From: a virus
Length of the DNA stretch: 37,589 nucleotides
Virus record (IMG/VR): IMGVR_UViG_3300033153_002696
Location: 1-37,589 of that record
Strand: one strand, 5' to 3'
The position numbers were made by a program, and so were the translations under genes. The notes below the pieces were generated by a model, which was not told the origin of the DNA, searched no databases, and worked only from the letters and a program-made list of their open reading frames with translations. Positions 990-33,620 of the stretch are shown here, one piece after another (the first letter of the stretch is position 1; the number at the start of each line of letters is the position of its first letter).

Positions 990-998
990 TGCTACTAT
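990..998 (+). promoter_or_regulatory. Extended -10 promoter abutting the ATG at 1005
   Basis: TGC-TACTAT followed by six bases and the ATG. If TACTAT (993-998) is the -10 hexamer, the expected start (+1) is 1005, the A of the ATG. I see no clear -35. The six spacer bases include AAGGA, but it touches the ATG too closely to act as a Shine-Dalgarno sequence. Confidence 0.45.
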
Positions 999-1004
999 TA
1001 AGGA

Positions 1005-1238
1005 ATGATAGAACAAGAAATGTTACTCTTAACTCGGAGGGTTATAGCCTTGGAAAATGCTTCAAGGGAAAATTCGGCTGTAGAAAAAAACGGCCTAAAA
1101 GAATTGGAAAGAGAAGTAACACTAAACGCAAACCAAATAGGTAGAAACACAACCGAAATTGATAGAATAAAACTAATACTAAAACATCAAGGAAAGAAAA
1201 AATCCCTATGGGAAAAGATAAAAAGTTACACAGATTAA
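1005..1238 (+). CDS. Short coiled-coil protein
   Basis: Seventy-seven residues, almost entirely predicted coiled coil by eye: hydrophobic residues at heptad spacing from residue 8 to about 60 (LLTRRVIALEN, then NQIGRNTTEIDRIKLIL), followed by a basic tail. It resembles small phage proteins that form helical bundles, but I cannot assign a function. The next frame (1208) overlaps its end by 31 nt. Its mRNA may be leaderless. Confidence 0.6.
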   Translation: MIEQEMLLLTRRVIALENASRENSAVEKNGLKELEREVTLNANQIGRNTTEIDRIKLILKHQGKKKSLWEKIKSYTD

Positions 1239-1315
1239 AAAGAACAGCCCGAAAGAAGAAGATGACCAAAAAAGAGGCTGATAAGTTTATTTATGGAAAG
1301 GTCGCTAAACAATAA
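1208..1315 (+). CDS. Tiny highly basic peptide (35 aa)
   Basis: Thirty-five codons from ATG 1208 to TAA 1315, about 40% Lys/Arg. It overlaps the previous gene in another frame. The charge suggests nucleic-acid binding. It is short, so chance cannot be excluded, but it fills an otherwise empty gap and fits the dense packing of the region. Confidence 0.4.
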   Translation: MGKDKKLHRLKRTARKKKMTKKEADKFIYGKVAKQ

Positions 1316-1324
1316 AACAATATT

Positions 1325-1489
1325 ATGCAAATAGAAAGAGAAGAACAAAAAGCCCAAGAACCAAACAAAAGAGTAGGATCAGGTCAAAGCCCAAGAGTAC
1401 CAACTCATGAGGGTAGTCAACTAGAAAGCCCTAAGACAGCAGGCAATACTGAATCAGGTATGCCTAGCACAGCACATAACGAACAATAA
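1325..1489 (+). CDS. Hypothetical disordered hydrophilic peptide (54 aa)
   Basis: Fifty-four residues rich in Gln, Glu, Ser, Pro and Gly with almost no hydrophobics, so probably unstructured. It ends 3 nt before the terminase small-subunit start, as expected for a translationally coupled packaging-module gene. Function not recognised. Confidence 0.5.
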   Translation: MQIEREEQKAQEPNKRVGSGQSPRVPTHEGSQLESPKTAGNTESGMPSTAHNEQ

Positions 1490-1492
1490 ACA

Positions 1493-1921
1493 ATGAGACC
1501 AAATGAGTTCAAAGAAGAATATATTGACAAAGTAGAAGAATACTTGGCTAGTAATACTGACGAGGAAGTTAGGGTTGTCCAATTAAAAAGTGATAAAGGC
1601 TATGAAAAGTTTGAACATAAACTAAAAGTAAAACTCCCTACAATAGAGGGTTTTGCTGGTTTTATAGGTGTATCAAAGAAAAGCGTTTATAATTGGGAAA
1701 AGGAAAACAGAGAGTTTTTACACGCTTTGGACAAAATACGCATAGAGCAACAGAATAGACTAATAAATATGGGATTATCAGGAGAGTATAATCCAACTAT
1801 TGCTAAGTTAATCTTGAGTTCTAATCATGGCATGAGAGAAAAGTCAGATGTAACAAGTGATGGCGAGGCATTACCCGTACTGGTCAAGTTTTTAGATGAA
1901 AACAATAAAAATACCAATTGA
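1493..1921 (+). CDS. terS: Terminase small subunit
   Basis: This 142-residue protein should recognise the packaging site and load the large subunit. It has a helix-turn-helix-like segment around residues 50-75 (IEGFAGFIGVSKKSVYNWEKE), then a C-terminal oligomerisation region carrying the NPTIAKLILSSNHG signature common in phage small terminases of the Terminase_2/P27-like type. Its end overlaps the large subunit by 26 nt, the classic terS-terL arrangement. Start: ATG 1493, no Shine-Dalgarno sequence. Confidence 0.85.
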   Translation: MRPNEFKEEYIDKVEEYLASNTDEEVRVVQLKSDKGYEKFEHKLKVKLPTIEGFAGFIGVSKKSVYNWEKENREFLHALDKIRIEQQNRLINMGLSGEYNPTIAKLILSSNHGMREKSDVTSDGEALPVLVKFLDENNKNTN

Positions 1922-3149
1922 ATATAAGCCACTATTTGATAGTAACTGGAGAGAAGCTGCCGTATTTGGTGGTAGGTATTCATTAAAATCTCATACAGTA
2001 GCAAGAGTATTACTTATACAGGCTAGACAAAAGAAAATGAGAATGGCTTGTTTCAGGGAATTTCAAAACTCAATAGCAGACAGCTCACATCAACTACTTG
2101 CAGACTTAATTAAACTATATGAGCTAACTGATTTTAGAGTAACGGACAAAGCAATAATAAATACAATAACAGGCTCGGATTTTATATTTAAAGGGCTACA
2201 CCATAACGAACAGAACATTAAATCAACAGAGGGTATTGATAAAGCATGGGTAGAAGAAGCACAAACAGTTTCTAAGAGAAGCCTAGAAGTCTTGACCCCA
2301 ACAATAAGAAAGCCAGGCTCACAAATTATATATACATACAACAGACTCTTAGAAGATGATCCAGTACACCAAAGGCTAGTAATTGAGGGCAGACCAGATA
2401 CTTTGATAATCAATGAGAACTACGACATAGCTATCAAGTATGACATGATGCCCGATAACATTCTGAAAGAAATAGAAGATGACAAGAAAAACAGACCAGC
2501 ATTGTATAAACATAAATGGTTAGGAGAACCTAACACAATGGAAAGAAAGATATACAAGGACTGGAATGTTATAGGTGAAATACCCCACGAGGCTAGACTA
2601 GAAAGATACTGTTTAGACTTTGGCTATTCAAATGACCCAGCGTCAATAATAGCGATATATTATTACAATGGTGGTTACATCTTAGATGAAATAACCTACC
2701 AGAAAGGACTAAGCAACAAACAGTTAGCCGATATACTTATAAACCAAGAACACAGAGCCTTAACAGTTGCAGACTCATCAGAGCCTAAAAGCATAGACGA
2801 AATAAAACTCTATGGAGTCAATATAACAGGAGCTATTAAGAAAGCCGAAAAGACAGGCCCAAAGATGACTTATAACCGATGGGCTATAGGTATAGTACAA
2901 GAACAAAAAATCAGCATAACAAAGAGAAGCGTAAACACAATCAAGGAGTACATGAACTATATGTGGGATATGGACAAAGACGATAAGGTACTAAATGAAC
3001 CAGTAGGCTTATGGGATCACAGCATGGATGCTATAAAATATGGAATAGTAAGTTTAGCTCCCATTAAAAGGAAACAAGAACTTAGAAAACAAATGGGTGA
3101 TAATTATTCAAACAGGGTAAGAAGAAAAAAGGTTAATCTAGCAATATGA
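1896..3149 (+). CDS. terL: Terminase large subunit (ATPase-nuclease)
   Basis: The 417-residue packaging motor looks like a PBSX/Terminase_3-type enzyme. The N-terminal ATPase has a Walker A-like loop GGRYSLKS (residues 25-32; the usual small residues are replaced by Tyr and Leu) and Walker B KAWVEEAQ (116-123, tandem Glu). The C-terminal RNase H-like nuclease shows its acidic residues in DFGYSNDP (Asp241), VADSSEP (Asp293) and WDHSMDAI (Asp374/378). Length is normal for the family. It overlaps terS and the next gene (4 nt). Confidence 0.93.
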   Translation: MKTIKIPIEYKPLFDSNWREAAVFGGRYSLKSHTVARVLLIQARQKKMRMACFREFQNSIADSSHQLLADLIKLYELTDFRVTDKAIINTITGSDFIFKGLHHNEQNIKSTEGIDKAWVEEAQTVSKRSLEVLTPTIRKPGSQIIYTYNRLLEDDPVHQRLVIEGRPDTLIINENYDIAIKYDMMPDNILKEIEDDKKNRPALYKHKWLGEPNTMERKIYKDWNVIGEIPHEARLERYCLDFGYSNDPASIIAIYYYNGGYILDEITYQKGLSNKQLADILINQEHRALTVADSSEPKSIDEIKLYGVNITGAIKKAEKTGPKMTYNRWAIGIVQEQKISITKRSVNTIKEYMNYMWDMDKDDKVLNEPVGLWDHSMDAIKYGIVSLAPIKRKQELRKQMGDNYSNRVRRKKVNLAI

Positions 3150-3801: not shown

Positions 3802-4118
3802 TGAAAAAAATACATAAACTAATAGCCAAAGCAACAGCTAACCCAGTCTTTAATGGGCTACCAGACGCTCTGAAAGACCCTAAGAACTACTTAAAGACAG
3901 AACGCAAGATAGTAGCCACAATGGTGTCAGACCACAAGCACACGACAATGAAAGCCTTTATTAACTGCAAGAGATGTCAGGCTAAAGTAGTCAAGAAAGC
4001 TGAAATGATTAAGGACTTGGGCTTTAAGGACTATGAGCAATACGCCAACTGGCGAAAAATCATGTGGATTATTATAAATGAGCAGAATTTAACTTTATAT
4101 GACAAGACAACAACTTAG
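3801..4118 (+). CDS. Hypothetical protein with Cys/His pair motif
   Basis: One hundred and five residues, basic, mostly helical by composition. HKHTT (residues 45-49) and CKRC (56-59) could form a zinc site. Its stop overlaps the SET-like gene by 20 nt, and its start overlaps the previous stop, so it is part of one translationally coupled run between terL and the portal gene. Not recognised beyond that. Confidence 0.6.
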   Translation: MKKIHKLIAKATANPVFNGLPDALKDPKNYLKTERKIVATMVSDHKHTTMKAFINCKRCQAKVVKKAEMIKDLGFKDYEQYANWRKIMWIIINEQNLTLYDKTTT

Positions 4119-4542
4119 AGAAGAAAAACGCCAAAGGGCTAAGAAGATTAAAGAGGCTATAGTAATGGTCAATGATGTTATCAAGATAAAACTTGGTACA
4201 TTTAATGGCAAAGTAGGCGTAGAAGCTATGAGAGCATTTAAAAAAGGCGATAGAGTCTATGCAAATGTAATACCTTGTTTAGTAGATATACCCTATAAGG
4301 ACTTTAAGAAGATTAGGCCTGATGTAAGCGAACTAATATTAAGCCATTTTCCACAGGTAGTAACTGGCTCACACTTTATGTCGCCTGATACTCTTATGCA
4401 GATATACTTACAGCACCACAATAATCCCAATTATGACGCTGAAACAGACAAGGCGTTAAAGAGTATTAAAAAGGGCGAAGAAATAACACAAGATTATAAG
4501 AAAATTAAGGATTACAAGAAGATATTTGCATCCTTTAAATAA
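4099..4542 (+). CDS. SET-domain protein (putative protein-lysine methyltransferase)
   Basis: This 147-residue protein has the motif order of a minimal SET domain, which transfers a methyl group from SAM to lysine side chains. Seen: opening strand GKVGVEAMRAFKKGD (residues 37-51), a pseudoknot motif QHHNNPN (105-111, normally NHSxxPN; the first Asn is Gln here), and KGEEITQDY (125-133) with the catalytic-type Tyr. Size is like compact viral SET proteins. An N-terminal basic helix (2-19) precedes the domain. It sits in the packaging/head module, so virion or host chromatin proteins are both conceivable targets. The altered NHS motif leaves activity uncertain. Confidence 0.72.
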   Translation: MTRQQLREEKRQRAKKIKEAIVMVNDVIKIKLGTFNGKVGVEAMRAFKKGDRVYANVIPCLVDIPYKDFKKIRPDVSELILSHFPQVVTGSHFMSPDTLMQIYLQHHNNPNYDAETDKALKSIKKGEEITQDYKKIKDYKKIFASFK

Positions 4543-4545
4543 GTA

Positions 4546-4554
4546 TGCTATTAT
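4546..4554 (+). promoter_or_regulatory. Extended -10 promoter for the 4561 gene
   Basis: TGC-TATTAT, then six bases, then ATG 4561: the predicted +1 is exactly the A of the ATG. A second overlapping hexamer, TATAAT (4552-4557), is present. No strong -35. Confidence 0.45.
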
Positions 4555-4560
4555 AATACT

Positions 4561-4800
4561 ATGGCACATAATGTTAATTGCATTAAATGTAAACGAACTT
4601 ATAAGTCAGAAGAACCAGATGATGACTACTGCCCTGATTGCTTGGTGCTACACCGACAGCTAATCATAGAAGTAGACGCTAAAATGAAGAACAAACCACG
4701 AAAGCAAGTAATGAGTGATTTACAAAGGTTTGACGCTATAGCAAAGCAAAGAGGTGGAGGATCATTCGTTAAATGCACAGATATGGGCATAAATATATAA
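4561..4800 (+). CDS. Zinc-ribbon protein (79 aa)
   Basis: An N-terminal zinc ribbon, CIKC (residues 7-10) and CPDC (25-28), is followed by a helical basic region ending in a Gly-rich patch. Such proteins usually bind nucleic acid or act as small adaptors. No Shine-Dalgarno sequence; a -10 box lies so close that the mRNA may be leaderless. The stop is 2 nt before the next ATG. Role in the head module unknown. Confidence 0.65.
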   Translation: MAHNVNCIKCKRTYKSEEPDDDYCPDCLVLHRQLIIEVDAKMKNKPRKQVMSDLQRFDAIAKQRGGGSFVKCTDMGINI

Positions 4801-4802
4801 TT

Positions 4803-7121: not shown

Positions 7122-7127
7122 TAGTAT
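7122..7127 (+). promoter_or_regulatory. Possible -10 box for the 7134 gene
   Basis: TAGTAT, then six A/T bases, then ATG 7134, placing +1 on the ATG. The wider string AAGCATAGTAT recurs exactly at the promoter near 33654-33664. No convincing -35 here, so weaker than the others. Confidence 0.35.
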
Positions 7128-7133: not shown

Positions 7134-7700
7134 ATGAAAAAAATAACAATATATGGCCTATGTGTAGTGCTTGCTATCGGTGCTGTGTTTTACATAGATA
7201 GTATTCGTGATAAAGGTGAAGTAGGTGCTGTTGTAAAAAATCAAGGCGTTAGATTTGATATAGTAGGTACACAAACAGGTACTTCAACTGTAGGAGTAGG
7301 TTTCTATGGTAATCACACGGCTTCAACCACTTACCCTATGAGAATAGGTAATATTTCTGACACGCTGTTTCTTACATTACAAGCTAACGCAGCTTCAACA
7401 TCAGCAGCAGCAGTCTCAATGGTAATCTTAGGTTCTAACGATTCATATTGTGATACATCTACAACTACAACAGTTTTTGATGTAGTTACAACAGGTCAAG
7501 TGAATTGGTACGACATCGGCTCAAATATCAAAGATTTAGCAGGTTCTACCAGTTTATCAGGAACAACAACAATTAACTGGACAGGTTTAGCAGCAGGCGA
7601 TAGAAAATCGCTTACATTAACAGACTTGGATGTTGCTTGTATTGCATTAGAGGTTAACGCATCTTCAACAGTACTTAGTATTCAAGGAATAACGAAATAG
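7134..7700 (+). CDS. Exported Ser/Thr-rich protein, patescibacterial style
   Basis: A 188-residue protein with a signal/anchor helix at residues 3-22 and a beta-rich, Thr/Ser-rich body with STTTT and NASST motifs. Two cysteines (near residues 106 and 168) could form a disulfide after export. I know this repeat style from Parcubacteria surface proteins. Placed between portal and scaffold genes, it may be a virion decoration or a protein sent to the host surface. The sequence does not decide. Followed by a pseudoknot and terminator. Confidence 0.6.
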   Translation: MKKITIYGLCVVLAIGAVFYIDSIRDKGEVGAVVKNQGVRFDIVGTQTGTSTVGVGFYGNHTASTTYPMRIGNISDTLFLTLQANAASTSAAAVSMVILGSNDSYCDTSTTTTVFDVVTTGQVNWYDIGSNIKDLAGSTSLSGTTTINWTGLAAGDRKSLTLTDLDVACIALEVNASSTVLSIQGITK

Positions 7701-9350: not shown

Positions 9351-9368
9351 ATTTAAGTGTGGTATAAT
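9351..9368 (+). repeat. Left imperfect inverted repeat flanking the HNH gene
   Basis: ATTTAAGTGTGGTATAAT here matches the reverse complement of 9846-9863 at 16 of 18 positions, including an uninterrupted 11-bp core. The pair brackets the HNH gene almost exactly. The left copy also contains that gene's -10 box. Confidence 0.6.
9360..9368 (+). promoter_or_regulatory. Extended -10 promoter for the HNH gene
   Basis: TGG-TATAAT, seven bases, then ATG 9376. The predicted +1 is 9375, one base before the ATG, so the mRNA would be essentially leaderless. An upstream ATG at 9367 lies inside the -10 and is not usable by this promoter. Confidence 0.55.
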
Positions 9369-9375: not shown

Positions 9376-9837
9376 ATGACTTTTCAAAAAGGCAATAAAT
9401 TTGCTAAAGGAAACAAACATACCGAAGAATGGAAAAGAAAAGCTAGTGAACGAATGAAAGGCAACACTCAGGGTTTCCAAAAAGGCAAACCATCACCAAG
9501 AAAGGGCAAAAAATCCTCTAAACCTTCGTGGAATAAAGGATTGAAAGGTTTTTTGGCAGGAGAAAAACACTATAACTGGAAGGGAGGAACAAGTAAGGGA
9601 TATAGAACAGGTTATTATTCTTTTGAATATAAAAAATGGCGAATAGCAGTATTTGAAAGAGATAGTTTTACTTGTCAATCTTGTCATCAAGTAGGGGGTT
9701 ACTTAACGGCTCATCATATAAAATCATTTGCTCATTATCCTGAATTACGCACTGTATTAGAAAACGGAATTACCTTGTGCGAAGATTGCCATAAATTAAC
9801 GGATAACTATAAAGGTAGAGGGAAAAAGAAAAAATAA
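9376..9837 (+). CDS. Free-standing HNH homing endonuclease (NUMOD3 type)
   Basis: A 153-residue protein from ATG 9376. The N-terminal half has repeated KGN/KGKPSPRKG/WNKG motifs of the NUMOD3 DNA-binding type. The C-terminal HNH has CQSC, then AHHIKSF, then LCEDCHKL, giving the catalytic His and the zinc knuckles. Such genes cut intron-less or gene-less alleles and spread by repair. It separates scaffold and capsid genes, has its own -10 box, and is bracketed by inverted repeats at 9351 and 9846. Confidence 0.85.
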   Translation: MTFQKGNKFAKGNKHTEEWKRKASERMKGNTQGFQKGKPSPRKGKKSSKPSWNKGLKGFLAGEKHYNWKGGTSKGYRTGYYSFEYKKWRIAVFERDSFTCQSCHQVGGYLTAHHIKSFAHYPELRTVLENGITLCEDCHKLTDNYKGRGKKKK

Positions 9838-9893: not shown

Positions 9894-10769
9894 GTGGCAT
9901 ATAGCAATACTATAACTTACGAAACTCTTTTTGAAGATGTTTTACAGGACAGATTAGACCACCCAACAACTTGGAAGGAAATGTGCATGGTTACGATTAC
10001 AGATACCAAATTGATATCTACATCGTACCTGTCATCAACTCCTTCAGTTCAGAGTGTAACAAGAGGTACAGGACACGATATGCAAGTTTTTGTAGAGACT
10101 GCTGAAACCCTTGATATTGCAACTGGTAGAGATTTAGGACTATTTGTTGACTGGGCTGACTTAGCTCAATCACCATGGACTAAACCTGCAGAGTTGTTTG
10201 ATAGGATCGGTGCTTTACTAAACGAGTATATTGAGAGTGCTGTATTAGCACAGTACGGAAGTCGTACTGACTTTGGTACATCTGATATAGGAGGTGGAGG
10301 TACATCTGCGACAGGCATTACTGTTTCTGCTAGTAACATTGATGACATCATTCGTGGTGTTAAAAAGACTATTAGGGAAGCAAACGGTCAATCACAGATG
10401 AACGCCAACGGTGTTGGATTTGTATGGAGGCCTGCTGATTTTGAAATTCTTGAAGCATTTGCACAAGGTAACGGTTACACTTCTGCTGACGAAGCATTGA
10501 AGAATGGAACTGTTGAGGGATTGCATTATATGGGTTGCGACCATTACTGGAGCAACGACAATACTGCACTTCACCTTTTCGCTGGTGTTAAGAAAATTCA
10601 AAGACTAGGTATTCTTAGGGGTACTTATGGAAAGGCACATACGATTGATTTCCCTGCTGGAGACTCAAACTCTTACCTTTCAGGTAGAAGTTTCTACTCT
10701 AGGATTGACATCGGTCATCTCGTACCTACAGGCCTAAAGGCTTTGGTATTTGATTTAAATGTAACTTAG
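9894..10769 (+). CDS. Major capsid protein
   Basis: A 291-residue protein, most likely the HK97-fold major capsid protein. It follows the scaffold gene and precedes the connector. A helix-rich N-arm is followed by a long helix region at residues 95-120 and an A-domain-like C-terminal half with many Gly/Asn turns. It starts with GTG at 9894; no ATG or Shine-Dalgarno sequence is available upstream. The nearest purine stretch, AAGAGGAA, is some 20 nt away. The assignment rests on position and size. Confidence 0.75.
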   Translation: MAYSNTITYETLFEDVLQDRLDHPTTWKEMCMVTITDTKLISTSYLSSTPSVQSVTRGTGHDMQVFVETAETLDIATGRDLGLFVDWADLAQSPWTKPAELFDRIGALLNEYIESAVLAQYGSRTDFGTSDIGGGGTSATGITVSASNIDDIIRGVKKTIREANGQSQMNANGVGFVWRPADFEILEAFAQGNGYTSADEALKNGTVEGLHYMGCDHYWSNDNTALHLFAGVKKIQRLGILRGTYGKAHTIDFPAGDSNSYLSGRSFYSRIDIGHLVPTGLKALVFDLNVT

Positions 10770-11581: not shown

Positions 11582-11772
11582 GCAAAGTAGACCTTACATT
11601 AGGAGAAAGCAAAACGAAAGTTGATCTTACCCTAGAAAGTAAGGATGCAGGTTTAACTTGGGATGACGCAGATTGGACTTGGGATAGTGCAGACAGTAGT
11701 TGGAACGCACCAAAAGTAACATTATCAAAAGAAAGTAAAACAAAGGATGATTTATCCTTAGAATCAAAATGA
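11578..11772 (+). CDS. Small Trp/Asp repeat protein
   Basis: Sixty-four residues from a TTG start overlapping the previous stop. It contains imperfect repeats of the type KVDLTLESK (three copies) and TWDDADWTWDSADSSW in the middle, as in small phage connector-region proteins of unknown role. Its stop overlaps the next ATG (ATGA). Confidence 0.6.
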   Translation: MSKVDLTLGESKTKVDLTLESKDAGLTWDDADWTWDSADSSWNAPKVTLSKESKTKDDLSLESK

Positions 11773-12773
11773 TACAAGCAATAATATCATCAATAATAAC
11801 AGTAGCAGTATTAGTAACAGGGTTTTTGAATATGCCAGCCGAATGGATCGGCTTTGGAGATAACTTTGGAACTTCTGTAACAACTATTAGTGGCACAGAT
11901 ACAATGTCAGACTTCCCCACTACCTATAATGCTAACCTTTCAGCCTTAAACGCTGGTAAAATGGAGATAAGCACCACGACACTTCCCCTTATTACAACGC
12001 TAACGGGCCTTACAACAACAGGAACGATAGGAACGGGAGTTTGGGAGGGTACGCCTATTGGAGTGGGTTATAACGGCACTGGAACGACATCGCCAACACA
12101 ATACTTAACAATGTTAGGAAACGGAGCTTTAGGTCTAACTCATGCTTCTTCTACAGGAACATCAGGGCAATTCTTAACATCAGGGGGTGCAGGGGCTTAC
12201 CCAAGCTGGCAGAGTTCGTCAGTTACACAGTCAGATTCATTTAACTGGACAGGTGGTCATACATTCACAAGTGCTTCAACAACCTTTCTGGGAGCAACTA
12301 TGGTGGGTATAGGTACTTCAACACCTTATGCACCTTTATCAGTAGTGGGAGAAACAGTATCAGGTTATTTCACAGCCACAACATCCACTTCAACTTTTCC
12401 AAACATTTTAGTAACAAACAACGCATCAACTTCTAATCTATTTATAGGTGGAACACAAACAGGTGGTACTTGGGCATATACAGGAAGCTCAACTGCTTAT
12501 AGTGTTACTTCTGGTACTACTAATTATGCAGATAACATTCCAGCAGAAGCTAATTTTGGAATGACAAGTGCTTTTATGAATTGCACACAAGATGATTACG
12601 GTAGTGCCACGATTGCAAGAAGTGGGCTTACATCTTCACAAGTAGGTAATGCAAACGCAGGTACAGTTGCAAATTATAAATTTACATTTAGTGGAACAAC
12701 TTTAATAGTTGAAGAAGAAGCTGATAGTAGTACAGATTGTGTGGTATCAGGAACAATGTATTGGTATAAATAA
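11769..12773 (+). CDS. Membrane-anchored repeat protein, Parcubacteria-like
   Basis: A 334-residue protein with an N-terminal anchor helix (about residues 4-20) and a long Ser/Thr/Gly-rich beta-repeat body. It carries GTIGTGVWEGTPI (about residues 85-97) and GIGTSTPYAPLSVVG (about residues 178-192), motifs I associate with Parcubacteria surface proteins. The C-terminal 70 residues form a separate Cys-containing domain. It may be a virion fibre acquired from the host or a protein displayed on the host. Confidence 0.65.
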   Translation: MIQAIISSIITVAVLVTGFLNMPAEWIGFGDNFGTSVTTISGTDTMSDFPTTYNANLSALNAGKMEISTTTLPLITTLTGLTTTGTIGTGVWEGTPIGVGYNGTGTTSPTQYLTMLGNGALGLTHASSTGTSGQFLTSGGAGAYPSWQSSSVTQSDSFNWTGGHTFTSASTTFLGATMVGIGTSTPYAPLSVVGETVSGYFTATTSTSTFPNILVTNNASTSNLFIGGTQTGGTWAYTGSSTAYSVTSGTTNYADNIPAEANFGMTSAFMNCTQDDYGSATIARSGLTSSQVGNANAGTVANYKFTFSGTTLIVEEEADSSTDCVVSGTMYWYK

Positions 12774-17981: not shown

Positions 17982-18758
17982 ATGACAAACAAAGAAAAAG
18001 CAGACAAGTTAATAAAACTAGCAAAACAGCTTCAATCTGAAGTCGTAAAAGACCAGATAACGAAGCAAGAGTTTAAGCAGTCTTTTGCCAAGATCGCTGA
18101 CTTATTTAAGCGTGCAGAAGCAAGACTAGACACAAAAATAGACACCAACCTAAAAAACCTAACAGCCACCCAACAAAAAGACCTAGCAGTAGTTGGAAAC
18201 AAACGACTAGCTTCACTTAAAAGTGAGTTCACTTCCCTATTTGCTAAACTACAAAAAGAACAATCAGATAATCTTAACTTCATAAAGGATAAAGTAAGAG
18301 GTATACAAGATGGCTTAGACGGAAAAGATGCAGACGAAGAATTGATAGTAGAAAAAATGCTAGAAAAAATCCCTGAAAAAGACACAGCCAAACAAATAAG
18401 AGATGGCTTAGAGGAATTAAAAGGAAAAGAACGCCTAGATATAAAAGCCATTGATGACTTAGAAGAACGCCTTGAGAAACTAGAAAAACGCCCATTAAAA
18501 GTAGGTGGTGGAACTTCTGATATGGGGGTCCAGTATTCCCTAGCAAGAATTGTAAAGACTGAAACGCCTAGTGGACTAATCAATGCAACAAACAAAGTAT
18601 ACTCAACTACCTCAAATATTAACGCTGTTATGTCTTTCGCAATCAATGGAGAATTTATCCATTCAAGTGAATACACAATAGTAAATAAGACAATAACATT
18701 CACAACGGCACTACCAGCCGATTTATCAGGTACTAATTTTGAAATAATTTATGTCTAG
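17982..18758 (+). CDS. Coiled-coil fibre-base protein
   Basis: A 258-residue protein. Residues 1-165 are a long charged coiled coil. A Gly-rich hinge KVGGGTS is followed by a C-terminal beta domain (about 180-258) of the type SGLINATNKVYST...VMSFAINGEFIHSS, seen in phage receptor-binding or tail appendage proteins. It overlaps the large fibre gene by 8 nt, so the two may form one appendage. Confidence 0.65.
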   Translation: MTNKEKADKLIKLAKQLQSEVVKDQITKQEFKQSFAKIADLFKRAEARLDTKIDTNLKNLTATQQKDLAVVGNKRLASLKSEFTSLFAKLQKEQSDNLNFIKDKVRGIQDGLDGKDADEELIVEKMLEKIPEKDTAKQIRDGLEELKGKERLDIKAIDDLEERLEKLEKRPLKVGGGTSDMGVQYSLARIVKTETPSGLINATNKVYSTTSNINAVMSFAINGEFIHSSEYTIVNKTITFTTALPADLSGTNFEIIYV

Positions 18759-21276
18759 AGGATTTATAACAACAACAGTAATGGTCGCATTAGGAGTTTT
18801 AGCAATAGGGTTTTTGGGTATTACACACTTCGTTACAAAAGAACCAAATGTCGGATTATCAGTTTTTCAAATTTCACAGGGTGGCACATCAACCAGTACA
18901 ATTCCTGCTTACGGAGAAATGCTAGTAGGTAACGCACTTGGTCAATATGACATAGTAGCAACTTCAACCCTTAACATTTCAGCAGGTTCTTACGCAAACT
19001 TTGGAACTGACTTTTACACTTACTTCAACGCAACCAATACAGACTACTTGTCAGAAGGAAGCTCAAACCGATACATGACCGAAGATGGTTGGGCTGGTTA
19101 CATGGAAGGAACAACAACTGACGCTCTTAGCGAGGGTTCAACTAACTTGTACTGGTCAGACACACTATTTGATAACCGATTAAGCTCATCAACAACAATG
19201 CCCTTTATAACGACGCTTCTGGGGCTTACAAACGCTTCCACAACCCAGATAACAGTATCAGGTAGTGCTTGGCTTGGTGGTGGATTCGTTTCACAAGCAA
19301 GCTCAACTATTGATGGAGCTTTAACTGTTACTGGTCAAATAACTTCAACAAATATAGATAATTCTGATACAGCAACTACAACAAAATTATGTTTTTCAAA
19401 TGGTGATTGTATGACATCCCCAACTGTTAGCGGTAGCCAAATAACGATGTTTCACTGGAATGAATCTGCTGAAATTGCTACATATGAAGGACTTAAAACT
19501 ATTCCCGATAGTACAAATGCAAATACCGATGAGTCTTGTTCTGCTGAATCGGGGACTGATGGTGGTTATTGTACCATCGACCCCTATGTATCAACCACAA
19601 CACCATCTGGTGAATTGACACTTACAGAAATCCCAGCAGGTACTTGGGAATTTCACTATTTTACTTATGTTAGTAGTGTTGCAAACGCATCATATATAGA
19701 GGCAACAGTTTACAGACGAACATCTGGTGGAGTGGAAACACAAATGTTTCAAGCTACATCAAGTGAAATAAATAATTTGTCTATTACTGAAAAACAATTC
19801 ATATCTGCACAAGGAGCTTTTGCTTTTGATCCAACAGATAGATTAGTTGTTAAGGTTCAGGGATATACTGATGGAGCTGCAGCAAAAGATGTTCACTTTT
19901 TATATGGTGGAACTTCATCAAATTATTCTCATTTTCATACGCCAATCACAATAGGAAGTTTTGATTTTGCTAGTAAAAGTTTAGATGAAACGATATCTGG
20001 CGCTTGGACATTTTCAGGTAATACAACCCTTACAAACGCCTCTACTACTCTATTGACTGTTTCAGGTGATACTTGGCTTACAGACTTAGGAACTGCGGCT
20101 GGAACTTTCCTCGCAGTAGACGGAGCAGGACTTGTTATTGCAACAACAACTTCTAGTGGAGACCCAGACCAGAACTTATGGGAAACAATAGCAGGGGATT
20201 CAGGAAGCACAGCAGCCGATTCTACTACAGATACACTAACAATCGCAGGAGGTACAAACATAACAACAGCTATGTCAGGCGATACACTTACAATAAATGC
20301 AGATGATGTATTTATGTTAAAATCTACAACTTCAGTGGACTCAATCACAACACTAACAAACCTAGTAACAGTAGGTACTATAGGTTCAGGAACTTGGGAG
20401 GCAACCGATGTGGGGGTTGAACACGGAGGAACAGGAGCTTCTACATTCACAGACGGAGGAATATTACTTGGTTCTGGTACAAGTGCAATAACAGCTATGG
20501 CTGCTCTTAATAATGGTAGTATTGTAGTTGGTGATGGAACAACTGACCCACAGATTTTAGCGGCATTTACAGCTTATGATGGTGATTTAAGACACGAAGC
20601 AGGAGGACTAGAAGCAGATGTAAGTTCTTATGCAGGATTACTTTCTATTACAGGAGGTGCTACAGCACAAGTAGATAGTATTGCAGAACTGAACGCTTTG
20701 CTCTTAGGAGAGAGTGTCGCTTCAACTACTTGGGTGGGTGCAACAAGTATTGTAACAGTTGGAACAATCGGTGCAGGTACTTGGGAAGGAACAGCTATAG
20801 CGGCAGGATATTACGCAGCAGGTTCAATAGATGGTGATGACATCAACTCTAACCTTGCAGGGCGTTCCCTAACGCTTACAGGGGCTTCACCAGACACCTT
20901 AGACATAGACGCAGAGATTTACACAGGAGCGATAACTTTTCACATTTCATCGTCAACAATGTCCACATCCACGACAGTATCAATGCACAGGTTCTCAAGT
21001 GCCGTAACTATTACAGGAGCTAAAGGAAGTTGTAATACAGGAACAACCACTGTAAATGTAGAAGTGAGAGCAGACGCAACCCCTTACACAGCAGGAACAG
21101 AAGTATTTGGGGGTGGCTTCCCAATGGGTGCAGGACATACTAACTCATCGTCAACAGTACAAACCACAGCAGTTGCAGCAGATGTACCCTTTGCTTTTGT
21201 AATTGAGGATGCAGAACCTACAGGGGAAAAATCAACCGAATGTAGTCTTACAATTAAGTACGAAAAGAACGATTAG
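18751..21276 (+). CDS. Large membrane-anchored fibre / adhesin-like protein
   Basis: At 841 residues, this is the longest protein here. An N-terminal hydrophobic helix (8-27) precedes a long Ser/Thr/Gly-rich beta-repeat body with NASTT units and two copies of a VTVGTIGxGTWE unit (about 545 and 668). A jelly-roll-like insert with Cys pairs lies at about 225-400, and a C-terminal Cys-containing head at about 720-841. This is the style of Parcubacteria surface proteins, yet the gene sits where phages keep receptor-binding fibres. The membrane helix is odd for a virion fibre. Confidence 0.7.
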   Translation: MSRGFITTTVMVALGVLAIGFLGITHFVTKEPNVGLSVFQISQGGTSTSTIPAYGEMLVGNALGQYDIVATSTLNISAGSYANFGTDFYTYFNATNTDYLSEGSSNRYMTEDGWAGYMEGTTTDALSEGSTNLYWSDTLFDNRLSSSTTMPFITTLLGLTNASTTQITVSGSAWLGGGFVSQASSTIDGALTVTGQITSTNIDNSDTATTTKLCFSNGDCMTSPTVSGSQITMFHWNESAEIATYEGLKTIPDSTNANTDESCSAESGTDGGYCTIDPYVSTTTPSGELTLTEIPAGTWEFHYFTYVSSVANASYIEATVYRRTSGGVETQMFQATSSEINNLSITEKQFISAQGAFAFDPTDRLVVKVQGYTDGAAAKDVHFLYGGTSSNYSHFHTPITIGSFDFASKSLDETISGAWTFSGNTTLTNASTTLLTVSGDTWLTDLGTAAGTFLAVDGAGLVIATTTSSGDPDQNLWETIAGDSGSTAADSTTDTLTIAGGTNITTAMSGDTLTINADDVFMLKSTTSVDSITTLTNLVTVGTIGSGTWEATDVGVEHGGTGASTFTDGGILLGSGTSAITAMAALNNGSIVVGDGTTDPQILAAFTAYDGDLRHEAGGLEADVSSYAGLLSITGGATAQVDSIAELNALLLGESVASTTWVGATSIVTVGTIGAGTWEGTAIAAGYYAAGSIDGDDINSNLAGRSLTLTGASPDTLDIDAEIYTGAITFHISSSTMSTSTTVSMHRFSSAVTITGAKGSCNTGTTTVNVEVRADATPYTAGTEVFGGGFPMGAGHTNSSSTVQTTAVAADVPFAFVIEDAEPTGEKSTECSLTIKYEKND

Positions 21277-21277: not shown

Positions 21278-21286
21278 TGATATAAT
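21278..21286 (+). promoter_or_regulatory. Extended -10 promoter at the 21293 ATG
   Basis: TGA-TATAAT, six A/T bases, then ATG 21293, so the predicted +1 is the A of the ATG. No clear -35. Confidence 0.5.
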
Positions 21287-21292: not shown

Positions 21293-21427
21293 ATGATTAA
21301 AATAATTAACTGCGTATTCTTTTATATAGTTTTGTTTTTTGTTTTTCTAATGGTAAATCTCACATATTTGTTTTGTTTCCCATTTTTGAAAAAACCATCA
21401 ACATTAGAAATAAATCATTTTTGCTAA
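21293..21427 (+). CDS. Single-span membrane mini-protein (44 aa)
   Basis: Forty-four residues with a strongly hydrophobic, Phe-rich segment at about 5-30 and a short basic tail. TAA overlaps the next ATG (TAATG, 21425-21429), so the two are probably coupled. Possible roles include a small holin-like or host-membrane protein. I do not recognise a family. Confidence 0.5.
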   Translation: MIKIINCVFFYIVLFFVFLMVNLTYLFCFPFLKKPSTLEINHFC

Positions 21428-23218: not shown

Positions 23219-23346
23219 TTGACTTAGCAAGAGAGGAAAAAGAACAAGACGGAACTGAGTGGGAATTTGGCTCTAAATCAATCCCCTGTATTGCACTAAT
23301 CCCAGAAGATAAAAGGGAGCAGTATGGTATAATTAAGGTATGTTAA
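23215..23346 (+). CDS. Short frame resembling an N-terminal fragment
   Basis: Forty-three residues (TEWEFGSKSIPCIALIPEDK core). The pattern looks to me like the first part of phage proteins related to the 24011 gene, cut short where the HNH gene begins: its last codons overlap the HNH start. It may be a remnant left by insertion of the HNH gene. This reading is from memory of the family pattern and needs alignment. Confidence 0.4.
   Translation: MIDLAREEKEQDGTEWEFGSKSIPCIALIPEDKREQYGIIKVC
23325..23333 (+). promoter_or_regulatory. Extended -10 promoter of the second HNH gene
   Basis: TGG-TATAAT, six bases, ATG 23340; predicted +1 is the A of the ATG. The context AGTATGGTATAAT closely matches AGTGTGGTATAAT upstream of the HNH gene at 9376. 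Confidence 0.55.
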
Positions 23347-24014
23347 TAAATTGTTTGGCTTGCAAAACAGAAATTAAACGCACCAATAACTCAAACTACT
23401 GTTTGGATTGCAGAATAATACCTTGTATGTGTAACTACTGTCTAAGGGAATTTCTTTTACCACGCAACAAGTTAATTATTAGAGGACATAATAATAATGG
23501 ACAATATTGTTGTCGTGATTGTTATGATAGATATTACAAACTTTATCCTAAGAGTGGGCAGATAGCGTGGAATAAAGGTAAAAAGTTTCCACAATTTTCT
23601 GGCAAAAATGCTAGTTTCTATGGTAAAAAACACACAAAAGAATCTAAGGCAAAAATGAGTAAAAATCATTGGGATATATCTGGCAATAATAATCCAATGA
23701 AACGACCAGAGGTAGCAAAAAAAATAAGTATACAGAAACAAGGGAGCAAAAATCCACAATGGCGAGGTGGAATATCGTTTGAGCCGTATTCAACAAAATG
23801 GACAAAAACATTAAAAAGAAGTATCCGAGAAAGAGATAATTATATTTGTCAGTTGTGTAATACACCACAAACTGATAGACAGCACGCTATCCACCATATA
23901 GATTATGATAAAAAGAACTGTAACCCTGATAACCTAATAACACTTTGTATAAGTTGTCATGGTAATACACAACAAAATAGAAAATATTGGACTAAAATAT
24001 TAGAAGTAAAATGA
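23340..24014 (+). CDS. HNH endonuclease with zinc ribbons and NUMOD3 repeats
   Basis: A 224-residue protein. N-terminal CLAC/CLDC and CNYC/CRDC zinc-ribbon pairs are followed by NUMOD3-like repeats (WNKGKKFPQFSGKN, then NNPMKRPEV), and the HNH nuclease at about 160-224 with CQLC, HAIHHIDYD and LCISCHG. It is a typical free-standing homing endonuclease, inserted between fibre/lysis genes with its own -10 box. Its last codons overlap the 24011 gene by 4 nt. Confidence 0.85.
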   Translation: MLINCLACKTEIKRTNNSNYCLDCRIIPCMCNYCLREFLLPRNKLIIRGHNNNGQYCCRDCYDRYYKLYPKSGQIAWNKGKKFPQFSGKNASFYGKKHTKESKAKMSKNHWDISGNNNPMKRPEVAKKISIQKQGSKNPQWRGGISFEPYSTKWTKTLKRSIRERDNYICQLCNTPQTDRQHAIHHIDYDKKNCNPDNLITLCISCHGNTQQNRKYWTKILEVK

Positions 24015-24868: not shown

Positions 24869-25545
24869 ACCAAGCACTATATCAAAAGCACTTTGGTATT
24901 CCAGCCCATAATGGATTGGACATTTGTGTCCGTGAAAAAGGCTTTGGATTTGGTACACCAATACACGCTACACATGACGGCACAGTAGAAAAAATCTTTT
25001 ATGACATACCACATCGGACAAGAGGTAACGGACTTTACTTGCTATCAGACGATAAATCTTTCTCAACTGTCTATTGGCATTTATCACAATTCAGCGACAA
25101 TGTCCGTATAGGACACAAGATTACTCAAGGACAAGTTATCGGACTAATGGGCAATTCTGGTTTTGTTCGTCCTCTACCAACCCAAGATAAGCCTAGAAAT
25201 GGCACTCATTTGCATTTCGCTAAAAAGGTTCATGGACTTCATAATGATTACAATGGTTTTGTTGACCCTGTAATACACATGATAGTAATAGGTGAAAAGT
25301 TGCCGATATACTTTGCAAGGGATTTGTTTATAGGACGAAGTGGTGATGATTGCTCATGGTTACAAACTTGTCTTAAACTTGAAGGCTTTGCAGAAGATTA
25401 CGAGCCGATTGGATTCTTCGGCAATAAGACAATGCGTGATGTCCGATTATTTCAGAAGAAATATAACATAAAACCAGCCATAGGATATTTCGGGCCAAAG
25501 ACTAGAAAACAAATGATGAGCTTGTGGTCGTGCTACTCATCTTGA
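24802..25545 (+). CDS. M23-family endolysin with peptidoglycan-binding domain
   Basis: A 247-residue protein that should cut peptide cross-links of the cell wall. The M23 (LytM) zinc site is complete: His36 and Asp40 in HNGLD, His93 in YWHLS, and HLH at 136-138. A C-terminal domain (177-240), with IGRSGDDCSWLQ, GFFGNKTMRDV and GYFGPKTRKQM, is a peptidoglycan-binding repeat. No signal peptide is visible, so export would need the downstream holin. Overlaps the papain-like gene by 67 nt. Confidence 0.88.
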   Translation: MRLSHPIAGFSFKENISQLFGVNQALYQKHFGIPAHNGLDICVREKGFGFGTPIHATHDGTVEKIFYDIPHRTRGNGLYLLSDDKSFSTVYWHLSQFSDNVRIGHKITQGQVIGLMGNSGFVRPLPTQDKPRNGTHLHFAKKVHGLHNDYNGFVDPVIHMIVIGEKLPIYFARDLFIGRSGDDCSWLQTCLKLEGFAEDYEPIGFFGNKTMRDVRLFQKKYNIKPAIGYFGPKTRKQMMSLWSCYSS

Positions 25546-25571
25546 CATAGTAATTATTAGTAATATATACT
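25542..25571 (+). promoter_or_regulatory. Sigma70-type promoter for the holin gene
   Basis: TTGACA (25542-25547), an 18-bp spacer, TATACT (25566-25571), and then 7 nt to the holin ATG. It starts just inside the end of the endolysin gene and would give an almost leaderless message. Confidence 0.6.
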
Positions 25572-25578: not shown

Positions 25579-25761
25579 ATGAAGAAGTTTTTAGAAGGCC
25601 GTAAGACATTCTTGGGAATAATCGTAATACTTGTTGGTATGTTTGGTTTGACCAATTTTATCACACCAGATGAAACAGAGATTGCGTTTAATTCCATTAT
25701 AGAGCTTGTGGGAGTCATCATTACTGTCTATGGGAGAGTAGTAGCCAAGCCTGTCAAATAA
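25579..25761 (+). CDS. Holin
   Basis: Sixty residues with two hydrophobic segments (11-28 and 38-52) around GLTNFI, and the GRKTFLGIIVILVG / VYGRVVAK motifs typical of short phage holins of this kind. It should open the inner membrane for lysin release. Lies between two lysins. It is in the same frame as the next gene, separated by a single TAA. Confidence 0.8.
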   Translation: MKKFLEGRKTFLGIIVILVGMFGLTNFITPDETEIAFNSIIELVGVIITVYGRVVAKPVK

Positions 25762-26496: not shown

Positions 26497-26770
26497 CCAT
26501 GTATCACTAAAACCCACTCCCCCGTCTGTTTTTCAAGAATAGCGACACCCACAAGAGGGTAGGGAACAGGTCTTTGTAAGTCCACAAGGTGCAAATGTGG
26601 GCTTCATAAAGCCCTAATCAGGGAAAATTAGTTTGGGAGCTGTACACTCCTAGATCGACCTAATAATCACCTGATAAAGCGTAAATAATGTCATTAGACA
26701 TTCCGCAAGTCTGACGGTTATCGGACACGGGGGGCTTGATTTAAGTCCCCCATTCCTGTATTATAAGAAT
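26497..26770 (+). ncRNA. Dense chain of hairpins, candidate structured RNA
   Basis: No gene fits this stretch. Stems in order: CCACA/TGTGG (26582-26600), GGGCTT/AAGCCC with CATA loop (26599-26614), CTAAT/ATTAG (26614-26631), GGAG/CTCC (26636-26650), AATGTC/GACATT with ATTA loop (26687-26702), and a 9-bp stem GGGGGGCTT/AAGTCCCCC (26729-26751). It may be one RNA running into the pseudoknot-terminator that follows. It does not resemble tmRNA or RNase P RNA as I know them. Confidence 0.5.
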
Positions 26771-26823
26771 AGTCCTGCGAACCTATGGCTCACTATTCCT
26801 CGCAGGACTTGTGAGCCTTTTTT
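26771..26823 (+). terminator. Pseudoknotted terminator
   Basis: AGTCCTGCGA (26771-26780) pairs with TCGCAGGACT (26800-26809), 10 bp. Loop bases GGCTCAC (26787-26793) pair with GTGAGCC (26811-26817), immediately followed by six T. Either an H-type pseudoknot forms, or the two stems compete as antiterminator and terminator. Termination before the 26843 gene is likely in both readings. Confidence 0.75.
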
Positions 26824-27856: not shown

Positions 27857-28132
27857 TGCGTTAAGGACGGCATTTCGCTTTAATTAACGAAATGTCACCC
27901 TTAGTGCGTTAAGTCTTAGAAAAAAACCTGACACAGTTAGAGTGTCTGCGAGGCAAGATAGCAACTTGCCCCAAGAATAAACAAGGGTTGAGAAGTAGTA
28001 TGCTTCATTTATGGAATGTACTTATCAAGTCCCAATGATTTAAAAGGAGTTCGCTACCTGTATATCATTAAAACTTTTTTCTAAGACTTAGGGCATTAAC
28101 TATGCTATTATAAATTCATCTTCAGGAAAAAG
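27857..28132 (+). ncRNA. Structured RNA closed by a 17-bp helix
   Basis: No gene fits. A first hairpin pairs 27862-27866 with 27899-27903 and 27869-27877 with 27888-27896. Then 27909-27925 pairs with 28075-28091 (17 bp including one G-U), closing a domain with GACAC/GTGTC (27930-27946), GCAAG/CTTGC (27953-27969), AAGTA/TACTT (about 27993-28022) and AATGAT/ATCATT (about 28034-28069) helices. The motif TGCGTTAAG occurs twice (27857 and 27905). A UUCG-loop terminator follows. The structure is strong; no known RNA class matches it. Confidence 0.6.
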
Positions 28133-28158
28133 GTCATAGGTTCGCCTGTGGCTTTTTT
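28133..28158 (+). terminator. Intrinsic terminator with TTCG tetraloop
   Basis: GTCATAGG (28133-28140), TTCG loop, CCTGTGGC (28145-28152), then TTTTTT. Eight pairs including G-U pairs. It ends the upstream structured RNA. Confidence 0.85.
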
Positions 28159-28232
28159 GTTAAATGAGTTACAGTACGCCCATAAAATTCTTATTAACGC
28201 TGACTCATTACAAAGTTATCAACAGTTGGTGT

Positions 28233-28260
28233 TTGCAATTCTCAAAATAGGGTATATACT
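28233..28260 (+). promoter_or_regulatory. Sigma70-type promoter
   Basis: TTGCAA, 16-bp spacer, TATACT; predicted +1 at 28267. The block AAATAGGGTATATACT...AAATTATGA is nearly the same as at the 33176 promoter. A DnaA-box-like TTATCAACA (one mismatch) lies at 28216-28224. Confidence 0.7.
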
Positions 28261-28266: not shown

Positions 28267-28380
28267 ATGAATGTATTGTATCAAGCCAAAAATCAGTTTT
28301 TTAGTATCGTCTTGAAAGTTGGTTTTTGGTACAATACAAAGCAAAGCACCGCTCATAATTGGGCGGTTTTTTGCGTTTAA
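28267..28380 (+). CDS. Possible leaderless 37-aa peptide or small RNA
   Basis: The ATG at 28267 coincides with the predicted +1, and a 37-residue frame runs to TAA 28380. The same bases form a strong interrupted hairpin (TGTATTGTA with TACAATACA; CCAAAAA with TTTTTGG), and an intrinsic terminator lies inside the frame, so a short non-coding RNA of about 105 nt is as likely. I cannot decide between peptide, RNA or both. Confidence 0.4.
   Translation: MNVLYQAKNQFFSIVLKVGFWYNTKQSTAHNWAVFCV
28348..28372 (+). terminator. Intrinsic terminator of the short 28267 unit
   Basis: ACCGCTC (28348-28354) pairs with GGGCGGT (28361-28367), 6-nt loop, followed by a T-run to 28372. It gives a complete promoter-terminator unit of about 105 nt. 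Confidence 0.8.
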
Positions 28381-30210: not shown

Positions 30211-30214
30211 TTAA

Positions 30215-30741: not shown

Positions 30742-30757
30742 ATTGAAAAATAAAATT

Positions 30758-31018: not shown

Positions 31019-31024
31019 AAAACA

Positions 31025-31611: not shown

Positions 31612-31631
31612 AAGCTAATTAAAAATTTACA

Positions 31632-31826
31632 ATGAAAGACCAAGATTATTACGATAAAAGAAGAAAGCACGTTGATAAATGGTTAAAAAAATGCGAAAAG
31701 GGTGTTTGCAGAATGTGTGGCAGAAAAACAGAACAGATATTTAACATAGACTTAAAAATGGCTTCTCTATGTGCTTCGTGTGAAAAAACAATCGTTAAAC
31801 AAAGTGTAGTAGATATGTATATGTAA
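31632..31826 (+). CDS. Zinc-ribbon protein (64 aa)
   Basis: Sixty-four residues: basic N-terminus, then CRMCG (about 26-30) and CASC (about 47-52), forming a zinc ribbon. Probably binds nucleic acid. Family not identified. Confidence 0.6.
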   Translation: MKDQDYYDKRRKHVDKWLKKCEKGVCRMCGRKTEQIFNIDLKMASLCASCEKTIVKQSVVDMYM

Positions 31827-31859
31827 TTCCCCATTAAAATAAATAAAGTAATAAACAAA

Positions 31860-32504
31860 ATGAAAGTAATTTTAGATTTATGTGGCGGAACTGGTGCTTG
31901 GTCAAAACCATACAAAGACAACGGCTACGATGTAAGAACAATAACCCTACCAAATTATGATTTACTAGAAACTGTGTTTGAACCAGAAACTTTTGAATTT
32001 AGGGGCGTAAAAATGATGAGAGTTGCCAAAGATGAAGTTTACGGAATATTAGCCGCGCCACCTTGTACAATGTTTAGTTTTGCAAGAACCAAAGCCAAGA
32101 CCCCAAGAGATTTAGAAGAAGGAATGAAATGTGTAAGAATGTGTCTTGATATTATCTGGTCTTGTATGGAAATAACCCAAAGCACAGGAAAAAAGACGCT
32201 ACCACTAAAGTTTTGGGCTTTGGAAAACCCAGCAAGAGGATTTTTACCGAAGCTATTAGGAAAGCCAGCGTTTGTATTTAATCCGTATGATTTTGGCGAC
32301 AATTATAAAAAAGAAACTGCCTTATGGGGAAATTTCAAAGAACCAGTAAAATGGTGCGAAGCTGATATAAAAAAATTGCCTAAGTTTGATTATATGAAAA
32401 GTAAAGATATTCACCCAGAAAAATTCGGGCAATTAACAAGACAAGAAAGACGAAGTATAACCCCAGAAGGATTCGCAAAAGCATTTTATAAAGAAAATAA
32501 GTAA
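31860..32504 (+). CDS. Small DNA cytosine-5 methyltransferase-like protein
   Basis: A 214-residue protein with class I SAM-binding LDLCGGTGAWS (residues 5-15), the C5-type catalytic AAPPCTMFS (65-73, Cys69), ENP (122-124) and the C-terminal RSITPEGFAKAF (198-209) closing motif. It is shorter than typical C5 enzymes, with little room for a target-recognition domain. It may protect phage DNA from host nucleases, modify the base for another step, or be inactive on its own. Confidence 0.75.
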   Translation: MKVILDLCGGTGAWSKPYKDNGYDVRTITLPNYDLLETVFEPETFEFRGVKMMRVAKDEVYGILAAPPCTMFSFARTKAKTPRDLEEGMKCVRMCLDIIWSCMEITQSTGKKTLPLKFWALENPARGFLPKLLGKPAFVFNPYDFGDNYKKETALWGNFKEPVKWCEADIKKLPKFDYMKSKDIHPEKFGQLTRQERRSITPEGFAKAFYKENK

Positions 32505-32536
32505 CCCCCCATTATTCACCTAAAAGAAACAAACAC

Positions 32537-32737
32537 ATGAAGATGCAAGATATAATTCAAGTATTCACAAAAGAGGAAGAAATGGAAATTTTAAGTTGTT
32601 CTGAATTTTTTACTTTTGTGGGGATTCGTAAAAATCCTTTTTATTACAAAGGAAAATTCGCAATAGTAAAAAGCGACATAGATTTAAGAACTATTAGAAA
32701 ACTAAGTAATGTACTAGATTTAAGAAATAACCAATAA
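32537..32737 (+). CDS. Hypothetical small protein (66 aa)
   Basis: Sixty-six residues, alpha/beta mix, one Cys. Ends 3 nt before the next gene. Not recognised. Confidence 0.45.
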   Translation: MKMQDIIQVFTKEEEMEILSCSEFFTFVGIRKNPFYYKGKFAIVKSDIDLRTIRKLSNVLDLRNNQ

Positions 32738-32740
32738 GAC

Positions 32741-33031
32741 ATGGCAAAGACAGAAACATATTTTTTTCTAAAAGAAAGGGATGGCTTAAAATGTGGCATA
32801 TGTAAAAAATCGCTAACAAAAGAATGGGCTGAATACCAAGAGTGGATGGATTCAGTAAAATTTCATAAAAGGTCATCGTTTGCAAGAAAAAAAATAAATC
32901 TAAACATAGACCACAAAATACCAAGAAGTAGATTAAAAAATAAGGAATATTATAAATACATGGCAAATCTACAATTAGCCCACAAGACTTGTAACACCGA
33001 AAAAGGCTCTGACAATGAATATATCAACTAA
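32741..33031 (+). CDS. HNH endonuclease (McrA-like)
   Basis: A 96-residue protein: CGICKKSL (18-25), IDHKIPRSRL (about 56-65), LAHKTCNTEKG (about 79-89), a complete HNH with zinc cysteines. Likely a small structure- or sequence-directed nuclease, used in packaging, recombination or homing. No DNA-binding extension. Confidence 0.8.
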   Translation: MAKTETYFFLKERDGLKCGICKKSLTKEWAEYQEWMDSVKFHKRSSFARKKINLNIDHKIPRSRLKNKEYYKYMANLQLAHKTCNTEKGSDNEYIN

Positions 33032-33175
33032 AAGGGAAAAACCCGTCTAAGGCAAACCTCAAGCGATTAAAGGCACATTTTAACCATTAAAGAACACTTA
33101 GATATTTAATTATGGGAGTAAGATATGAAGATCCGATAAGGACTTGACAAGAACTAACCAGAATTTGCGAAAGTA
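33032..33175. other. Non-coding gap before the 33176 promoter
   Basis: About 145 nt with no credible gene; the longest ATG frame is 11 codons. A second TTGACA at 33144-33149 has no matching -10. I see nothing else that I can support. Confidence 0.4.
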
Positions 33176-33203
33176 TTGACAACTTTGTAAATAGGTATAT
33201 ACT
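33176..33203 (+). promoter_or_regulatory. Sigma70-type promoter abutting the HNH ATG
   Basis: TTGACA, 16-bp spacer, TATACT, six bases, ATG 33210: near-consensus, and +1 is predicted on the ATG. It is homologous to the 28233 promoter over AAATAGG..TATACT..AAATTATGA. Confidence 0.8.
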
Positions 33204-33209
33204 GAAATT

Positions 33210-33620
33210 ATGATAAAAAATAAAAGAGAGTGTAGGACTTGTGGTAAAGATATATCAAAAAGGGCAGGAAATGCTGTTTATTGTTTCCCTTGTTTATATA
33301 AAAGGGAAAATCAAAAAAGTAAAGAGTCTGGTAGGAGGAAAAGAAAAGATTTTGTCGCAGATAAAAAATGTATTTTTTGTGGTTCAGTAAAAGATTTGCA
33401 AGGGCATCACTCTGATATGGATAAAAGAAATAATACACAAGATAATTTTATTTTTTTATGTATGTCGTGTCATTCAAAAGTACATTTTAGAATACTAAGA
33501 CCATTTATAAGAAACATAGCAAAATCCCTGAAAGCCGAAAGATTTGGAGTAACACAGATTGCAAAGATAATCGGGCTATCAAGACAAAGGATTTATAAGA
33601 TTTTGGAAAAGGTAGAATAG
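33210..33620 (+). CDS. HNH endonuclease with C-terminal helix-turn-helix
   Basis: A 136-residue protein. N-terminal CRTCGK/CFPC zinc pair, HNH with CIFC, GHHSDMDKRNN and CMSCHSKVHF (about 50-92), and a C-terminal resolvase-like HTH (FGVTQIAKIIGLSRQRIYKIL, about 113-133). It could be a homing endonuclease whose HTH also autoregulates. Leaderless mRNA is likely from the promoter geometry. Confidence 0.82.
   Translation: MIKNKRECRTCGKDISKRAGNAVYCFPCLYKRENQKSKESGRRKRKDFVADKKCIFCGSVKDLQGHHSDMDKRNNTQDNFIFLCMSCHSKVHFRILRPFIRNIAKSLKAERFGVTQIAKIIGLSRQRIYKILEKVE

Follow-up and report, generated by a model that had tools for sequence, protein, structure and literature searches.

Promoter-like -10 boxes at the spacing expected of leaderless mRNAs in a phage lineage depleted of Shine-Dalgarno sequences

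How do ribosomes find the start codons of a phage whose genes almost lack Shine-Dalgarno (SD) sequences? The question is raised by the viral genome in IMG/VR record IMGVR_UViG_3300033153_002696, which we analysed over its whole length (37,589 bases, positions 1-37,589; hereafter "the window"). Its ends carry a 114-base direct terminal repeat, its GC content is 36% and all called genes lie on the + strand. We recognised genes for the small and large terminase subunits (PF16677, PF04466), HNH endonucleases, an M23 lysin, an RNA ligase, a DNA methyltransferase and an ssDNA-binding protein; for most remaining proteins, profile and database searches found no match. The annotated phage collection held no close relative, and related contigs were found in IMG/VR. 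The window has no tRNA genes, and among the related loci only L014 has phage tRNAs. Between terminase and portal, the phage family throughout carries a gene for a SET-domain-like protein (window 4099-4542 and L099 3981-4394; PF00856, E 6e-4 and 2.5e-3, both slightly short of the cut-off). Large terminase genes reach about 690 codons in two relatives (L019 589-2679, L022 3330-5396), and in L019 the nuclease domain harbours an intein (PF14890, E 1.5e-13).

The near absence of SD sequences, claimed in an earlier note on this DNA, held up: the 5-base core occurs at 0 of the 46 called ATG starts of the window. Across the family, SD cores are depleted, being found at 1.6% of starts versus 4.4% of internal ATGs. 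One exception is the small ORF at 404-571, which has a perfect SD (AAGGAGG) at 5 nt spacing. Family-wide, T occupies position -1 in 60% of starts, and A is found at -3 and -6.

The earlier note had also listed nine -10 hexamers lying six bases before an ATG (1005, 4561, 7134, 21293, 23340, 28267 and 33210) or seven (9376 and 25579), and had read them as a leaderless expression strategy. All nine are present with these spacings (Table 1), and none of the nine sites has an SD sequence. The site at 7134 does not stand as a strong case: it has neither TG nor -35, falls outside the 40 best sites of the scan described below, and the L099 gene at 7132, similar to the 7134 gene in its N-terminal region, has no -10.

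Table 1. Promoter-like elements and the genes or RNA that follow them in the window.
Feature	Position	Strand	Remarks
-10 TACTAT with TGC	993..998	+	6 nt before ATG 1005 (77-aa ORF)
-10 TATTAT with TGC	4549..4554	+	6 nt before ATG 4561; top-scoring promoter-like site of + strand
Zinc-ribbon-like small protein gene, head module, before portal	4561..4800	+	leaderless candidate
TAGTAT	7122..7127	+	6 nt before ATG 7134; a weak site and likely a chance match
-10 TATAAT with TGG	9363..9368	+	overlaps in-frame ATG 9367; spacing 7 to ATG 9376
HNH endonuclease gene	9376..9837	+	PF01844 E 4.9e-8; candidate for leaderless or 1-nt leader
-10 TATAAT with TGA	21281..21286	+	6 nt before ATG 21293
44-codon mini-ORF	21293..21427	+	stop overlaps next start (TAATG at 21427)
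-10 TATAAT with TGG	23328..23333	+	6 nt before ATG 23340
HNH/NUMOD3 endonuclease gene	23340..24014	+	leaderless candidate
TTGACA-18-TATACT promoter	25542..25571	+	11/12 consensus positions; -10 end 7 nt before ATG 25579
60-aa protein, hydrophobic N-terminal part, after M23 lysin gene	25579..25761	+	leaderless candidate
TTGCAA-16-TATACT promoter	28233..28260	+	6 nt before ATG 28267
Structured small-RNA-like unit with terminator hairpin	28267..28375 (~109 nt)	+	MFE -43.1 kcal/mol, shuffle z -8.3
TTGACA-16-TATACT promoter	33176..33203	+	11/12 consensus positions; -10 end 6 nt before ATG 33210
HNH endonuclease + HTH gene	33210..33620	+	leaderless candidate

Because the earlier note might have selected good cases, we chose a scan that was blind to genes. 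Each position on either strand was scored with a generic sigma-70 matrix made up of an E. coli-like -10, an optional -35 at 15-19 nt and a bonus for TGN, with weights of our own choosing; gene positions were not used, and the next ATG was looked up only after scoring. Eight of the 12 top sites of the + strand had an ATG at the two spacings (six at spacing 6, two at spacing 7), where chance predicts 0.25 per spacing and 0.5 for both (binomial P ~3e-9 for 8/12). The same scan of the minus strand, as a control, gave none at spacing 6 and one at spacing 7. The start codon at spacing 6-7 of the top sites is ATG, with GTG or TTG there only 0-1 times. The excess was stable across a range of -35 and TG weights. 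With either the -35 or the TG term dropped it fell to about 4 of 10-20 sites, and with both dropped it was nearly gone, so full promoter quality, and not AT-richness, underlies it. A plain count of -35/-10 pairs was not above shuffles; the unusual thing is their placement. The promoters of 25579 and 33210 are the top two -35/-10 pairs in the window's right half.

We extended the analysis to 37 related loci, which together with the window provide 588 unique starts, 559 of them ATG. Within this set spacing 6 accounts for 12 occurrences of TGNTANNNT, and each other spacing for 0-5. The earlier note had proposed counting the distance from -10 boxes to ATGs against shuffled controls. In the 496 unique starts of the relatives alone, TGNTANNNT is over-represented at spacing 6 (9 versus 0.55 in dinucleotide shuffles), as is TATAAT with one mismatch (20 versus 4.6). 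A family-wide scan gave 131 top sites, with an ATG at spacings 6, 7 and 8 in 12, 8 and 10 cases (2.5 expected each). As a replication set we fetched 13 further loci with the capsid-like protein 9894-10769, which had no part in designing the test. In this independent set an ATG follows at spacing 6 for 11 of the 55 top sites (0.94 expected), and TGNTANNNT occurs five times at spacing 6 versus four times at all 44 other spacings combined. A TATAAT-like box stands at spacing 6 in about 4% of family starts, chance matches included. Tested genome by genome in nine large family genomes, the signal was strong in the window, G300 and G301, marginal in G298 and G299 and null in G302, G303 and G304; the ninth genome, G305, is partial and in none of these classes. 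The leaderless strategy is thus not uniform within the phage family.

The placement is conserved at the zinc-ribbon gene. Counted by eye on upstream sequences, its orthologues represent 14 distinct lineages (protein identity to the window about 31-58%, GC 35-62%), and eight of these have a -10 at exactly 6 nt: the window, the L002 group, L024, L094, L103, L104, L105 and L106. L034 has its -10 at 8 nt, L026 a weak one, and L006, L095, L096 and L100 no clear one. The 62% GC genome, L104, reads TGG-TACGAT-TTTCGT-ATG at this place, so the signal is not base composition. Boxes also precede the portal gene of L012 (1492) and a probable capsid gene of L013 (6163), and the starts of the portal (5066) and capsid-like (9894) genes have no consistent -10 element across relatives.

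The boxes follow promoter grammar. Extended -10 and -35 elements are known to stand in for each other, and the same reciprocity is seen here: the TG sites at 1005 and 23340 lack a good -35 and that at 4561 has TTTGCA (two mismatches), and the strong sites without TG have a -35 (TTGACA at 25579 and 33210, TTGCAA at 28267). In the family, the density of TGNTATAAT upstream of genes (0.41 per kb) is tenfold that within gene bodies (0.04 per kb).

We infer, with a probability of about 0.83, that host RNA polymerase starts at or next to the A of the AUG in about seven genes, and that these are translated leaderless. A host polymerase of the sigma-70 type would transcribe the phage from two interchangeable promoter forms, an extended -10 (TGN-TATAAT) without -35 or TTGACA plus TATACT without TG; the genes so placed would be 1005, 4561, 9376, 21293, 23340, 25579 and 33210. 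Given the usual discriminator of 6 nt, spacing 6 would put +1 at the A of the AUG, and spacing 7 (9376, 25579) at the preceding purine, an A. The box before 9376 overlaps the longer in-frame start at 9367; use of this promoter would therefore require 9376 as the start. If these promoters fire as predicted from the sequence, ribosomes loaded with initiator tRNA would attach straight to the 5' AUG. Ribosomes would get to the SD-less genes behind the first cistron chiefly by way of overlapping or abutting starts (at 29 of 62 junctions the genes lie at most 10 nt apart), and termination-reinitiation could serve many of these later cistrons. The mini-ORF at 21293, if leaderless, could pass ribosomes to 21427 through TAATG.

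It is possible to see in the AT-rich hexamer a translation element (A/U-rich, S1-dependent or Kozak-like) that merely resembles a -10, as in SD-less Bacteroidota. All family starts are A-rich upstream, and the share of T at -1 is close to that of Flavobacterium phage 11b (AJ842011; 56-57%), which is likewise SD-free with A at -3 and -6. However, phage 11b, as A-rich and as SD-less, has no -10 at spacing 6; it has TAnnTTTG upstream and a strong A peak at -11 to -13 that the window family does not share. The controls as a whole (NrS-1, phi1422, sk1 and 11b, all phages with known hosts, and Bacteroidota contigs) gave nothing at spacing 6 beyond single chance matches; in a Manatee Spring phage three top sites were at spacing 6 (P 0.02). 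What is enriched in the window family is TGN-TATAAT at an exact spacing, or a TTGACA 16-18 nt away, and the box persists in L104 despite its GC content. We regard a translation element as very unlikely.

The boxes could also be real promoters that serve downstream genes or small RNAs, with the ATG at +1 incidental, as transcripts prefer an A after a pyrimidine. This probably applies at 28267, which the earlier note had counted as a leaderless mRNA. Over the 109 nt from +1 the RNA is predicted to form two hairpins, the first long and imperfect and the second a terminator (stem 28348-28367); the other eight stretches all fold far less strongly. The predicted fold makes 28267-28375 probably a small RNA gene and its ATG incidental. 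The same might be true of 21293, where the ORF is only 44 codons long. However, the ATGs at 1005, 4561, 9376, 23340, 25579 and 33210 open into genes, three of them with HNH domains, and the spacing is conserved at the zinc-ribbon orthologue, which makes this explanation very unlikely for the set. Leaderless placement, as the earlier note had it, is thus supported for the set by the blind scan, the independent loci and the spacing kept at the orthologue, and is not supported for the structured RNA at 28267, nor as a strong case for the weak site at 7134.

Other structured tracts were noted nearby. Directly upstream of the 28267 unit lies a second very short promoter-terminator unit (28103-28162), with TGC-TATTAT at 28106 followed within about 50 nt by a 14-bp hairpin and a T run (z -4.7). 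Immediately before gene 26843, an attenuator-like region (26759-26822) has TATTAT at 26759 and then alternative hairpins, AGUCCUGCGA/UCGCAGGACU versus CUCGCAGGACUUGUGAG with a T run. At 33636-33780, a TTGACA-17-TAGTAT promoter precedes a structured tract (z -2.9) that has no ORF. The two structured RNAs matched no Rfam family, and exact-sequence searches of viral contigs found nothing.

That AT-rich DNA simply yields TATAAT-like words near ATGs, from which good ones were picked, is hardly credible: TATAAT alone at the called starts of the window is not significant (4 versus 1.1 expected, with up to 6 in 200 shuffles) and single weak members such as 7134 may be chance, but the blind scan, its minus-strand control and the replication loci rule this out for the whole set.

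The earlier note had assigned the strategy to accessory and late genes, which is half right. Three of the nine sites belong to HNH endonuclease genes; others precede the head-module zinc-ribbon gene, a gene behind the lysin for a small protein of membrane type, and the 44-codon mini-ORF. In the family, 5 of 9 HNH-type genes have a box, compared with 28 among the 578 other starts (P 4e-5; counted post hoc and partly by hand), as expected of mobile genes that bring their own promoter.

The leaderless mechanism is already known in other bacteria, and the window phage lineage is a further case. In TA-led genes, a TATAAT-like box lies about 10 nt before the start, is TG-extended in low-GC genomes and occurs without SD; they were described for chromosomes, mainly of Actinobacteria and Deinococcus-Thermus, where they make up about 20-46% of genes (Zheng et al., 2011, PMC3160421). 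The window phage resembles these in box position, TG extension, lack of SD and AUG start, but here the carrier is a phage lineage and the share of starts is small. In Deinococcus-Thermus, a -10 motif lies a few bp before the ORF at a specific spacing, with no RBS and with a -35 that is optional but enhancing (Zhong et al., 2025, PMC12340547). That motif is TANNNT and was tested by mutation and reporters, whereas the phage case has low GC and an extended -10 and rests on sequence evidence. Thermus phage P23-45 has middle and late promoters of the extended -10 class (PMC7403470). Extended -10 promoters read by the host RNA polymerase would be common to both phages; phage and host are unrelated. 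Work by Berdygulova et al. in 2011 reportedly found the middle and late transcripts of P23-45 to be leaderless. We identified no protein like its anti-sigma factor gp39 in the window phage. F. johnsoniae is SD-free yet mostly leadered (PMC6847099).

Which host would read such mRNAs? A single scan of genome contigs gave one contig of a bacterial genome that carries this phage family, L008 (SKHH01000024.1, 4.8 kb), in a Lishizhenia MAG. No comparable match was found in 295 other genomes of the phylum Bacteroidota, and L008 may be mis-binned. Despite L008, we rejected a Bacteroidota host on promoter type: the Bacteroidota element TAnnTTTG is not enriched upstream in the family (0.33 per kb vs 0.40 in gene bodies), and in phage 11b it is (1.90 vs 0.68 per kb). 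TGA is the stop codon of 15 of the 53 window genes, which argues against a TGA-recoded host (Absconditabacteria, Gracilibacteria). Ser/Thr-rich window proteins, for example those of 11769-12773 and 18751-21276, are reminiscent of Patescibacteria, which we take as a lead only. SD-scarce Patescibacteria include Wolfebacteria, Campbellbacteria and Peribacter (PMC10783764). A literature search returned no paper joining Patescibacteria with SD and translation initiation. We tentatively suggest, as a doubtful reading, that SD-guided initiation has largely been lost in the bacterial lineage of the host, which may be a candidate phylum such as Patescibacteria, and that the leaderless extended -10 route is a main one there. 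The UViG name of L099 (IMGVR_UViG_2626542112_000002) does not start with 33000; it may be a single-cell or isolate genome and could give the host.

For a large dark phage family, the boxes provide an annotation rule, in that a -10 box can fix the start codon (9376 over 9367). They also make a testable prediction on the translation machinery of the host. If a host without SD use relies on 5'-terminal AUGs, the phage family would be an entry to the initiation biology of an uncultured lineage and, should the suggested host be the true one, its signature would give the first sign of that lineage's mode of initiation.
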